Assembly: GCF_003584165.1 (NCBI RefSeq)
Contig: NZ_QXFJ01000030.1
Span: 186,001 to 250,000, forward strand
Length of the DNA stretch: 64,000 nucleotides
Origin: Flagellimonas aequoris
GTDB taxonomy: Bacteria > Bacteroidota > Bacteroidia > Flavobacteriales > Flavobacteriaceae
Direction: 5' to 3'
Part shown: in pieces, positions 24,313 through 40,361 of the stretch
How the letters are laid out: every line of letters begins with the position of its first letter
How positions within the stretch are numbered: the first letter of the stretch is position 1
Program-made: the position numbers and the translations under genes
The notes under the pieces: generated by a model
What the model was told of the DNA's origin: nothing
The model's database searches: none
What the model saw: only the letters and a program-made list of their open reading frames with translations

Positions 24313-24690
24313 TTACAGGTAGCCCTTAAACTGTTGGTAGAGAATGTACAACGGTACCGAAGGAGGTAAAGCCACTTCATTGTCAGAGTGCAGTAGTGGT
24401 TGATTTCCTGTTGATCCAAGTGCTGCCAAAGCCGTGGTAGTAATGGGCAAAAAAGGCAGGGGTTGGGCATTGATTTCCTTTGCTTTGGCCGTGGACACCG
24501 TAACAAAAGACGCGCAACAGGTTTTGGAAGCCGCAGTGGCCTTAATCTTGTTGGTCACCTTGGTGGTGGTGAGACCCAAAGAGGACTCTATGGTGTTCCG
24601 GACCTTGCAGGGTGCCAAAAGGAGCAGCCCGATCAACAGAACGGACAGTCCTTTTTTAGTGCTAGGTGGTGATGTGTGGATTCCCTGCAT
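24313..24690 (-). CDS. Small exported Cys-containing protein of unknown function
   Basis: A 125-residue protein with a hydrophobic N-terminal segment (14-26) ending LLLLAPCKVRN, a possible lipobox with Cys28, and a downstream vicinal pair SKTCCASF. I recall PCKVRN..LG..TKVTNK proteins in flavobacterial operons for metal or redox stress, but no function is established. It is first in the operon, 62 bases before the phosphoesterase gene. A strong dyad lies 33-50 bases upstream of its ATG, which supports it being a true operon leader rather than a chance frame. Confidence 0.6.
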   Translation of the reverse strand: MQGIHTSPPSTKKGLSVLLIGLLLLAPCKVRNTIESSLGLTTTKVTNKIKATAASKTCCASFVTVSTAKAKEINAQPLPFLPITTTALAALGSTGNQPLLHSDNEVALPPSVPLYILYQQFKGYL

Positions 24691-24722: not shown

Positions 24723-24740
24723 CTGTAACTAAAGTTACAG
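24723..24740. promoter_or_regulatory. Operator-like dyad CTGTAACT-AA-AGTTACAG
   Basis: Eight-base half sites, perfectly complementary, around a 2-base centre (24731-24732). It is centred 42 bases upstream of the first gene of the DsrE/DoxX/phosphoesterase unit. The symmetry is that of a dimeric helix-turn-helix regulator (Crp/Fnr and similar); no regulator is adjacent. Confidence 0.65.
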
Positions 24741-24829
24741 AGGATGGGTGATTGGTGCAAAGAAATTGGAATAGAGTTGGATGAATAAATTCTGTTTCAA
24801 TTTCGAAAAGCTATTAAGTTTATTAGTAT

Positions 24830-25075
24830 CTATTTTTCACTAGAACTTTCGTCTTCAGTTTCTTCCTCAGCAAAAATCCCCGAAATTTTCTTAAGCATTT
24901 CTTCCAAGTTTACTTTTTCATCATGTGATAAATTACCAAAGTCCGTGTCCTCAATAGAATTATCCTCTAACATTTGTTTGATCATTTCTGTGTATGTGAA
25001 GTCAACGGCAATGGTACCTTGCTGTATCTTAATGGTAATGTCATTATTTTCCTCTTTGTTAAATATCAATTTCAT
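24830..25075 (-). CDS. Small acidic protein coupled to the PHP-ATPase
   Basis: An 81-residue, strongly acidic protein (many Glu/Asp; tail EEETEDESSSEK) beginning MKLIFNKEENNDITIKIQQG. Its ATG overlaps the stop of the PHP-ATPase gene by 4 bases (ATGA), so the two are translated together. No homology recognised. Base composition is AT-rich like its partner and unlike the flanks. It could be a regulatory or inhibitory subunit of the ATPase; this is inferred from the coupling only. Confidence 0.75.
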   Translation of the reverse strand: MKLIFNKEENNDITIKIQQGTIAVDFTYTEMIKQMLEDNSIEDTDFGNLSHDEKVNLEEMLKKISGIFAEEETEDESSSEK

Positions 25076-27378
25076 TCTTCTGTAAATTTCTTAAGATTAT
25101 ATTTCTTTACTCTCTTTTTAATTGAGGATTTACCACCGTCCGTAATTGTGGCTATTAAATCCACAACACTTTTACCTTCAATTTCTCCTTCCAATGGACT
25201 TGATTTAATGATTAATTTGTTATTTACATTTCTGCATAATATTATATTTTGAGCATCCGCTAACATTGGAATTGTGGCATTGTGAGAAACCAATATTATT
25301 TGTTTTTTGCTTTTAATTTTCTTAACAGCTTCAACCAATCCTTTGTTAATGTAATCAGTAGCTAAATTATCCTCTGGCTGGTCGATGATTATAGGTGCAC
25401 TATCTTTATCATAACCTAAAATAATATCAAGAATTACTGAAGTTTTCCAGCCTGGACTTAATTTTTCGAATTCTCGACCATCCTTAGTGATGATTTTGTA
25501 TTTCTTTTTGTTTAAATTTTCAAAACCATTGTAGATTTTACTTTCAAAATCATCATAATCATGAACTTTAGGATTTTGTTTTTTGAAGTTAGATTCAAAT
25601 AGTAATTCAGGCGTAATATATTTAAAATCAGTGATTTTATTTTTTAGATAGTGATTGACTACTTCAATGAATTTATTTGGGTTTAATTCAAAGTCATTTT
25701 CTATATAAAGTTTATGTCCCATAGATTCAATTTCCTCCGAATCAAAATTTAAAGAATAGGTTGAAATTGAAGATAAAGTTCTATGAAACTGACGGTATGC
25801 TCGAACGTATTTTTTTAGGGATTCTTGAAGTTTATTGAAGTTTTGTCTTTTGGTTTGTTCTTCAAGATTGGAATGCTTTAGCTCTTGGTTGTAATCTTCT
25901 TGCTTTTGCTCTAGTAAATTTCTAACCCTTTTTTCCTTATTTGAAATTTGTAGTACGCTTTCAAGTTCTTTCTTTAGGCTTAAAACTAAGTTAGAATCAT
26001 GTATTATGAATGGATATTGAGACAGAAAGTTTTCTAAATTATCTAAAGATTGAATATAATTATCATATGCACCTTTGGAGAAAAGAAGTTTTTCATTCTC
26101 AATTTCTGATGGTTGAAGATTATCATAGATATTGGTTTCTAAATTACTACCAGTTATTAGTCTGGAAATAATAGGAATCGTGTTTAATGTTTGACTTTCT
26201 TCTTCTAGAATTTTTACGCATCTAATTAATTCTTGAATGTTCTTTTTAAATTCTCTTAGACCATTATTAATACTTATTTTTATATCATCATCTCCGGGAA
26301 AAACTCTTTTTATAATATCAATATTTTCAATTTTATCCTCACTGACATTGTTTACTACTTCTGATATGTAGTTCTGTGACAAAAAATGAGGAATCATACC
26401 AGAAGGATTTACAACAGTTATCTTGTCTACTTCGTATTCGGAATAAATAGATTCATCTAAAGTTTTATTTAAGTTTCTAACAATTGAATCGGCAAGTAGT
26501 GTTTTACCACTTGAAGAACCTCCTATTATTACATTTAAGCCAGAAGTTAATTCGATATCTATTTCAATGTTGTTTTTTTTGTGAGAAACAGATTGAATAT
26601 TTTCAGAATAAAATACAGGCTTTGTCTCAGAGTATATTAGTCTTGACTTTTCAGATAGTGATAACCTTAAACCATTAAATGTTGGCTTTGCAAGCATCCA
26701 AGTTGGTTTAAAGGGATTTTTATCTTTTCCGTTTGGATAATTATTTGGTGTGTAATTGTCACTACAAGTTATTAGGTTAACAAATTCATTTATACCTAAC
26801 TTTTTAAAATATTCTTGAGTGCGCTCCAAGCCATTATCTCCTCTAGCTGTAAATCCTTCAAAGTGATTATAATATACACTTCTTTCTAATGTTCCATCTA
26901 CTGTAGTTTCTTTTGGTATTGAGGTGTTAAAAGTAGCGTGTGATTGACCTCCGTGAGGCAAAAGCATAAAATTGTACTTATCAAACTTATTTATAATATC
27001 TTGAATTGTAGGTATAGTTGGGTCTTTCTTCTCTACTACTTTATTTGGGTATAGTTCATCAAGTCTACCATTAATGTCATCAATTATTTCTTCTGTTATT
27101 TCATTTAAGTCAAAATAGATATGACAGTGATATGCAGGACAGGTGTTATAGTTTCTGATGTGCAGTTCAACACCAAGAATGATGTTTATATTTAAAGCAA
27201 CTGCTTTTAAATAGGCACTTTTGTTAACCATATTATGGTCAGTTAGGGAAATCAAAAATTCAGAGTTCCCATTAAATTCGTGAATTTTACTTACTAAAGT
27301 TTCAATGTCGTAATCATTATTTACGTCATTTGGGTCCGTAGAAGTATGGATATGTGTGTCTAGGTAAATTGGATGCAC
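25072..27378 (-). CDS. PHP-domain and SMC/RecF-type ATPase fusion (TrlF-like)
   Basis: A 768-residue protein. Residues 1-215 form a PHP phosphoesterase domain with HIH (9-11), TDHN (46-49), VELH (70-73), YHCH (83-86), PHGGQSH (141-147) and SDNY (206-209). Residues 250-768 are an ABC/SMC-type ATPase with Walker A GGSSSGKT (286-293), a long coiled-coil insertion (about 360-590), Walker B IIIDQPEDN (663-671) and a switch His in ILVSHN. The IDQPEDN motif marks the PHP-linked ATPases called TrlF in public annotation, which often lie in defence or mobile regions. Start is GTG (27378). AT-rich, suggesting acquisition. Nuclease or phosphatase activity is inferred from the fold. Confidence 0.85.
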   Translation of the reverse strand: MHPIYLDTHIHTSTDPNDVNNDYDIETLVSKIHEFNGNSEFLISLTDHNMVNKSAYLKAVALNINIILGVELHIRNYNTCPAYHCHIYFDLNEITEEIIDDINGRLDELYPNKVVEKKDPTIPTIQDIINKFDKYNFMLLPHGGQSHATFNTSIPKETTVDGTLERSVYYNHFEGFTARGDNGLERTQEYFKKLGINEFVNLITCSDNYTPNNYPNGKDKNPFKPTWMLAKPTFNGLRLSLSEKSRLIYSETKPVFYSENIQSVSHKKNNIEIDIELTSGLNVIIGGSSSGKTLLADSIVRNLNKTLDESIYSEYEVDKITVVNPSGMIPHFLSQNYISEVVNNVSEDKIENIDIIKRVFPGDDDIKISINNGLREFKKNIQELIRCVKILEEESQTLNTIPIISRLITGSNLETNIYDNLQPSEIENEKLLFSKGAYDNYIQSLDNLENFLSQYPFIIHDSNLVLSLKKELESVLQISNKEKRVRNLLEQKQEDYNQELKHSNLEEQTKRQNFNKLQESLKKYVRAYRQFHRTLSSISTYSLNFDSEEIESMGHKLYIENDFELNPNKFIEVVNHYLKNKITDFKYITPELLFESNFKKQNPKVHDYDDFESKIYNGFENLNKKKYKIITKDGREFEKLSPGWKTSVILDIILGYDKDSAPIIIDQPEDNLATDYINKGLVEAVKKIKSKKQIILVSHNATIPMLADAQNIILCRNVNNKLIIKSSPLEGEIEGKSVVDLIATITDGGKSSIKKRVKKYNLKKFTEE

Positions 27379-27430
27379 AGTCTTTTTTAGGTTTACTTTC
27401 TTTTAATGGGGATATTGCTATTTCGATGTT

Positions 27431-27481
27431 CTGCTAAATTAACAGAAAACCCCCTACAATACCTTACGCTTTTCCGTAAGG
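27431..27481. promoter_or_regulatory. Two symmetric elements upstream of the PHP-ATPase gene
   Basis: CTGCTAA-A-TTAACAG (27431-27445) is a dyad with 6 of 7 pairs, centred 60 bases before the GTG start. CCTTACG-N6-CGTAAGG (27462-27481) is a perfect 7-bp hairpin. Neither is followed by a T-run, so a regulatory rather than terminator role is more likely. Confidence 0.4.
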
Positions 27482-27589
27482 AGTTGTCGTTTTATCAACA
27501 GGAATCCCTGTTTCTCAGATATTCAGGATCAGTTCAAGTATGGTAGGAGTCACATTGCTCAACAAAGAGGATCGTTCCAAAGCATGTGA

Positions 27590-39764: not shown

Positions 39765-40361
39765 TTATTTAATTGATGTTTTTGTTTCCTTTTTCAAGGG
39801 ATTATAAAATCTCTCGTGGACATGTTCTCTTAATTCATTGGTGTTTTCAATTAAATCAGTAAGTTCCCACACCATCATTGATGTCATAAAAATAAACTTC
39901 CCCCTAATTCCCTCCAATAAATCATCATTTCTTTCAATGCCTTCCATGGCCTCTAGTATGGTATTGTGAAACGAGTTTTCTAATTCCCTTATACGGGAAA
40001 TCACCGATCCATTTTCAAAATTGCATCCATAGATATCATGCGCAAAGGAATTTCTGATTTTCCTTACAATATGTAAATCACGAGCAAATTTACCTGATAT
40101 TAATCCTATTCTGAAGGCCATATCAATTTTTGAACTAAAATTTGACAATGGGCTTGTTGCACTGTCAAATAAAGAATCACTAGATGAGGGTGTTGGGACT
40201 AAATAAGTTTTCAATAAAGTTTGTAAATTCTCATCTATTATTGAAACTACTAAGATTACAGCTGCTCTATCGCTTTCTTTTTGGAATTGCTCTAAAAGGA
40301 AATCCCATTGATTATCTGAAGTTTTTGCTTTTTCCTTTGTTACTTTTTTATTCTCACCCAT
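39765..40361 (-). CDS. MltR/HEPN-like protein
   Basis: A 198-residue protein resembling the mannitol-operon repressor MltR/DUF4145-type group: KIDMAFRIGLISGKFARDL, followed by HIVRKIRNSFAHDI. RNSFAH matches the Rx4-6H signature of the HEPN fold, to which MltR belongs; HEPN proteins are often RNases in toxin-antitoxin or defence systems. No cognate antitoxin gene is adjacent. AT-rich compared with neighbours and with a low-GC gap (40362-40520) after its start, so possibly acquired. Function open. Confidence 0.7.
   Translation of the reverse strand: MGENKKVTKEKAKTSDNQWDFLLEQFQKESDRAAVILVVSIIDENLQTLLKTYLVPTPSSSDSLFDSATSPLSNFSSKIDMAFRIGLISGKFARDLHIVRKIRNSFAHDIYGCNFENGSVISRIRELENSFHNTILEAMEGIERNDDLLEGIRGKFIFMTSMMVWELTDLIENTNELREHVHERFYNPLKKETKTSIK

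Follow-up and report, generated by a model that had tools for sequence, protein, structure and literature searches.

PHP-ATPases related to Ppl and TrlF occur widely; in one of them, the anti-phage protein Ppl, an N-terminal PHP domain is fused to an ATPase. E. coli Ppl is described as a 3'-5' ssDNA exonuclease, which is held off by NTPs and triggered by nucleotide depletion together with 3'-OH ends, and as a single-gene system (PMC12904381). In this study we analyse a gene with the same fusion in a stretch of 64,000 nucleotides from Flagellimonas aequoris, called the window below, and unlike Ppl this gene is one of a pair. The two-gene PHP-ATPase subfamily with a constant small partner is a new variant, a description of which was not found in the literature searched; among the matches listed, titles and abstracts (with subscription papers largely missing) mention neither a small partner of a PHP-ATPase nor a defence protein mimicking the SSB tail.

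Both genes of the pair are located on the minus strand of the window. The large one (25072..27378) starts with GTG and encodes a PHP-ABC/SMC-type ATPase of 768 aa, with which full-length homologues align from residue 1, while the small one (24830..25075) starts with ATG and encodes 81 aa. The stop of the ATPase gene and the start of the partner gene share the four bases ATGA at 25072..25075, an overlap from which we infer that the two ORFs are translationally coupled. Both ORFs and the four shared bases were correctly placed by the original prediction; of the extent given there, 24830..27405, the start is right and the end lies 27 bases beyond the end of the gene. The AT-richness claimed for both genes is also seen: the 57 window ORFs of at least 100 aa have a median G+C content of 45.2% (sd 4.1), the lowest being the ATPase gene with 29.3%, and the small gene has 32.5%. 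The second most AT-rich ORF of the window is found at 39765-40361 on the minus strand (198 aa, 32% GC).

The ATPase is composed of several parts, all on the minus strand. The PHP domain covers residues 1 to about 257 (26608..27378) and has H9/H11, D47/H48, E71, H84/H86, H142/H147 and D207 as invariant residues; the PHP fold is predicted, and the metal-binding residue set of the superfamily is present. It is followed by the features of an ABC/SMC-type ATPase, that is Walker A, signature, Walker B and H-loop. Walker A (residues 286-293, GGSSSGKT; 26500..26523) is recognised both from the sequence and from the ABC/SMC head fold; the ABC signature and the Walker B/D-loop are found at residues 640-671 (LSPGWKT ... 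IIIDQPEDN; 25366..25461); and between the two ATPase lobes there is a helical, coiled-coil-like insertion with approximate limits 25741..26280, as judged from the long helices in the predicted model of the homologue L052. Near the C terminus, invariant columns mark a conserved basic block at residues 748-764 (GGK...KKRVKKYNLKKF; 25087..25137). Over 39 aligned homologues, invariance extends beyond these PHP residues to six of eight positions in Walker A (G286 and S288-K292), to D666-N671 (DQPEDN) and to S698-N700 (SHN); the PHP, Walker A, coiled-coil and IDQPEDN motifs named before this analysis are real ones, many of them invariant over this set. Fold comparison recovers both PHP and ABC/SMC structures; by sequence alone, the PHP part matched no PHP protein of the PDB. 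The ABC/SMC-head fold is also that of the ATPases of PARIS, retron-Eco7, Lamassu and Wadjet (the Foldseek matches include 8v46, 9kjx, 9hqu and 8as8). These four systems use other effectors, with Toprim, HNH or PtuB-type partners and not PHP.

Among described families, the best match of the window ATPase is the TrlF family AAA-like ATPase (NF045780), with 197.5 bits against a cut-off of 350, in two stretches which reach the C terminus. The Spaf_1101 family AAA-like ATPase (NF045781) follows with 101.4 bits over residues 63-761 against a cut-off of 475; at the one Spaf_1101 locus inspected, no adjacent partner is annotated. For Ppl, the scores are 77.7 bits (NF042955, cut-off 1000) and 59.3 bits (PADLOC Ppl), the end of the model, which is 882 long, being matched by C-terminal residues 626-758 of the 768-aa protein. 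Each of the 39 family members matches all three models with an E-value of at most 1e-5. Judged by these profile scores, the window ATPase is kin of TrlF, Spaf_1101 and Ppl and lies below the cut-off of each family; the label TrlF-like denotes kinship and not membership. We also inspected 20 regions with TrlF-type genes on plasmids and phages, 17 of which have the gene annotated with more than 800 aa. None of the 20 shows an overlapping small acidic gene, as far as the incomplete gene tables of the plasmids tell. A small gene is annotated within 60 bases downstream in one of them (L151, 78 aa; unlike the partner by eye), and longer genes directly follow in L150 (275 aa) and L159 (293 aa, overlapping). 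Since these regions are without a comparable partner, a gate such as the one proposed below would not be a general need of the PHP-ATPase fold.

That the small gene is a fixed companion was one of the two claims set beforehand to be judged, and it was borne out. With the ATPase alone as query and one genome per species, the scan gives 44 loci with 43-91% identity, whose record titles place them in Bacteroidota, Clostridia, Planctomycetes and Patescibacteria, with one ATPase fragment in a record labelled Alphaproteobacteria. Six of the 44 loci cover the ATPase gene incompletely or begin within it, and L031/L045, L046/L049 and L039/L043 are near-duplicates. The partner is present in all 42 loci having enough sequence, the contigs of L044 and L054 ending too early to be counted; it has 69-105 aa, starts between -25 and +7 bases from the ATPase stop, and forms a single alignable family. 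No third gene family is widely common to the loci, the next best occurring in 6 of 45. The same picture is obtained with profiles: in an order sample of 395 genomes, the ATPase profile at 1e-60 detects four genomes, and the partner profile gives strong matches (93.8-105.9 bits) in exactly these four, adjoining the ATPase, while its 14 further matches at 0.01 reach at most 21.2 bits with partial coverage. In a phylum sample of 228 genomes, which overlaps the order sample, strong matches of both profiles fall in the same two genomes; the weak ones are nine for the partner (at most 21.2 bits) and six for the ATPase (longer TrlF-like frames). The identities of partner and ATPase are correlated (Spearman 0.86 over 38 loci), as shared descent alone would also give. 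In records of four phyla, the second, unannotated gene is present wherever the sequence extends far enough; an ATPase cloned alone would be half a system tested. As to the record binned as Alphaproteobacteria (L055), it has a copy of the pair with 87% identity over the ATPase fragment, which may be a recent transfer or a mis-binned contig.

The partner itself belongs to no described family that we could find. Its model, built from 43 sequences with a mean pLDDT of 75.0 (moderate), predicts a beta-beta-beta-alpha-beta-alpha core at about residues 1-71; a separate model of L052, built from the joint alignment A6, in which three rows cover the partner, has the same element order. Because this joint model came without an inter-domain error, we claim no interface between ATPase and partner from it. 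Against solved and viral structures, no fold stands out. M1 and Y28 are invariant, K2, K7, L35 and E53 nearly so. In the window copy, residues 73-81 form an acidic tail without an SSB-like tip and with pLDDT below 50, which is probably disordered as modelled. The small protein had been called very acidic; this is true of the window copy, with 21 D/E and 8 K/R, and not of all copies, the net charge ranging from -27 to +6. It is negative in 42 of 43 partners, the only basic one being L036 (+6), and the tails vary in both length and charge. GvpK (Pfam PF05121) scores 18.4 bits against a gathering score of 25, and neither a DNA-binding nor an SSB family is matched in Pfam (window partner) or PHROGs (nine partners).

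Regarding mobility, the original prediction held that the pair is a transferred cassette and is not found at the same site in all relatives. Composition, the patchy spread over phyla and the differing cargo of the site all support transfer; a clean empty site is not what the relatives show. The G+C content of the module is below that of its flanks in 31 of 34 loci, by 5.5 points on average, the drop often being small. In the ATPase tree, two Patescibacteria lineages and a Planctomycetes row fall among Bacteroidota and Clostridia, with several branches long. In a genus sample of 71 genomes, a close copy occurs only in the genome of the window, and nine other genomes have weak matches, one of them full-length (L002, 29% identity). 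In the phage and plasmid collections, nothing matches the ATPase over 80% of its length, and the partner is not matched at all.

At the site itself, the pair is absent from the four nearest relatives examined (G030, G033, G049 and G055), whose flanking 5'-nucleotidase is 96-98% identical, and other genes are there between an 18-base palindrome (beginning at 24723) and the DUF6090 gene (27590). Each of the four has there a single AT-rich gene or gene pair (28-33% GC), accompanied by genes whose G+C content is ordinary. The left junction is marked by the palindrome CTGTAACTAAAGTTACAG (24723..24740), also present with other cargo in G030, G033 and G049; it is located just past a 125-aa minus-strand ORF (24313-24690), on its start side, and may be bound by a regulator or mark the edge of a recombination event. 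The alignments to the four relatives end at 24742-24747. The right junction is a short host element with an inverted repeat (27433..27505), which abuts other cargo in G033 and G055. In G055, a bSEFIR gene (PADLOC 3.3e-107) is located where the window has the pair, flanked by the same junctions. Cargo is exchanged at this site, as opposed to one insertion for which the relatives have a clean empty site. A 10-base direct repeat near the junctions was considered as a target-site duplication and rejected as too short. In addition, the 27433-27505 element of G033 and G055 is found a short way downstream of a gene for 530 aa, which is incomplete in the G055 stretch and absent from the window at this site. 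G049 has at the same site an AT-rich overlapping pair of 77 and 362 aa (L145:2824-4129), which has no Pfam or PADLOC match at 0.001 and is another candidate module.

The company of the pair at other loci includes defence genes. Taking the nearest two ORFs of at least 110 aa per side within 4.5 kb, we picked 138 neighbours, of which 132 remain without repeats and 129 without three overlaps or fragments. Among the matches listed, PADLOC at 1e-10 gives type I and II restriction-modification, bSEFIR, SoFic, AbiLi (five members), AriA (five, probably the same proteins) and AbiLii (two), and Pfam at 1e-6 adds RloB and HD-CE; the PADLOC families are the best 25 of 32 and of 124, counted per family, and tell presence, not enrichment. 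The earlier claim of a defence module gains from these neighbours and from the kinship to Ppl, while protection itself is still a candidate function read from sequence. In three Bacteroidales loci (L034, L037 and L050), an AAA gene is located about 19 bases upstream of the PHP-ATPase, perhaps in one operon; the L034 copy matches the AbiLi and AriA models, and those of L037 and L050 group with it by BLAST.

Taken as a whole, we give a probability of roughly 0.55 to the reading that the pair is a mobile two-gene anti-invader module, in which a dedicated acidic subunit gates or steers a Ppl/TrlF-related PHP nuclease-ATPase. In the large protein, a PHP metallo-nuclease would be joined to an ATPase that has an ABC/SMC head and a coiled coil; owing to the kinship to Ppl, we infer that its nuclease is a similar one. 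The partner would be translated from the mRNA that also encodes the ATPase, probably in coordination with it, and may dock on it by its alpha/beta core. By mimicking nucleic acid, the acidic tail could then control how the nuclease reaches DNA; alternatively, in some lineages, an SSB-like tip could do so by binding proteins that interact with SSB. When a phage attacks, the gate would open and the PHP domain would degrade or nick DNA, part of the nuclease control having presumably been moved to the acidic subunit. Pointing the other way are the TrlF-type regions inspected, which have no comparable partner, the variable tails with one basic partner, the moderate confidence of the partner model, the small size of many G+C drops and the lack of matches in the phage and plasmid collections.

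The tight overlap of the two genes and their co-inheritance would equally suit a toxin-antitoxin system, with a PHP-ATPase that would poison the growing cell unless neutralised by the small protein, a labile antitoxin which infection destroys or titrates; the partner is indeed small and mostly acidic, with a low-confidence and probably disordered tail in the window model. Its gene is however second in order, no DNA-binding family was matched for the window partner (Pfam) or the nine partners (PHROGs), and the TrlF-type relatives inspected do without anything comparable, and this explanation seems unlikely to us. Constant pairing and a conserved core would also be expected if the small protein did no more than help the ATPase to fold or remain stable, but the acidic tails and the repeated SSB-like tips would be left unexplained, which makes such a role quite improbable. 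Heads of SMC, RecN and Rad50 are among the closest solved folds, as a housekeeping DNA-repair pair with no defence role might have; for a pair which is so rare (4 of 395 genomes), patchy and AT-rich, at a site with changing cargo, we regard this as very improbable.

A further explanation, to which we attach tentative and clearly minor weight, concerns the end of the partner: an SSB-like tip would bring the nuclease to replication or repair sites, or sense phage proteins which grab the SSB tail. SSB-Ct is a known protein-binding peptide (PMC11981726); the SSB tip is described as recruiting many proteins, and the acidic tails of Hfq as tuning nucleic-acid binding. Eight of 50 listed partners resemble the bacterial SSB tip in an acidic stretch followed by a hydrophobic residue, Pro and Phe (two rows share endings with L021 and L024), while the core differs from SSB in being alpha/beta by prediction and not an OB fold. 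Five of the eight are in the main family (L017, DDLPF; L052, DDMPF; L037, L050 and L051), and three are distant partners (L002 and L161, both NDDLPF; L064, DADVPF); L034 ends with DEDLLF, and L079 has no PF ending. Whole-protein shuffles give 0.03 PF endings on average and at most 2 in 20,000, and in the background 3 of 589 ORFs end with PF, none of the 30 with acidic ends among them. On an ATPase tree of 42 rows, including seven of the eight PF partners (L051 was left out as a fragment), the ending takes five changes in four separate places, which is a minimum-change figure and not a test because the rows are related and long branches leave the tree partly unsure. The partner tips also resemble the SSB tips of the same genomes, with NDDLPF in both partner and SSB of G233, and NDDLPF in the partner and DDDLPF in the SSB of G019. 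Each of four genomes has one tipped SSB, ending EDDDLPF (window), EQDDDLPF (G019), EDNDDLPF (G233) and INDLPF (G610), the seven other SSB-family proteins being without the tip (11 of 12 loci listed). Against this explanation, 42 of the 50 partners lack the PF ending, including those of the window and G610, though the SSBs of these two genomes end with DDDLPF and NDLPF; the independence of the tips rests on few lineages; and two of the three background PF endings, in near-identical methyltransferases of the loci L031 and L045, also look SSB-like. If the SSB-like tip is functional, it would link a defence nuclease directly to the replication fork, and would possibly answer how nucleases tell phage DNA replication from their own.

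Similar pairs are found further away. The short PHP-ATPases L002 (G019) and L161 (G233) have a 4-base overlap with an acidic protein of 117 or 110 aa, the L002 ATPase being about 29% identical to that of the window and its partner being missed by the partner profile, and L064 (IMG/VR) has a PHP-ATPase with an overlapping or adjacent acidic gene. By hhalign against A1, L002/L161 give P 4e-4 with a probability of 34%, and L064 gives P 0.022 with 2%; from this alignment, homology of the L002 and L161 partners to the main partner family is plausible. We further surveyed the 50 loci which score 60-210 bits against the ATPase profile and have sequence downstream. L033 and L055 proved to be fragments of members. 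In three of the remaining 48 (L002, L064 and L079), an acidic gene of 100-117 aa starts at -3 to +2 from the stop, none of these partners being matched by the partner profile, and 26 have instead an ORF of 296-390 aa near the stop; other short ORFs in the 48 loci (41-116 aa; L083 at +46, L094 at +43) were not judged to be partners. Scans of viral contigs with L064-type, L002-type and single partner queries give the contig of L064 itself or nothing. It is conceivable, if doubtful, that the small partners of short PHP-ATPases form one ancient 'SSB-tail decoy' class, in which the core docks and the SSB-like acidic end tethers the nuclease to SSB-coated DNA or triggers it when phage proteins seize the SSB tail, the acidic tail alone being the gate in tipless copies such as that of the window. 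In G019, an SSB-family gene without PF tip (16124-16549 of L185) is located about 4.6 kb from the L002-type pair, and the pair itself (L185:8829-12247) comes after a serine recombinase-like gene, as on a mobile element.
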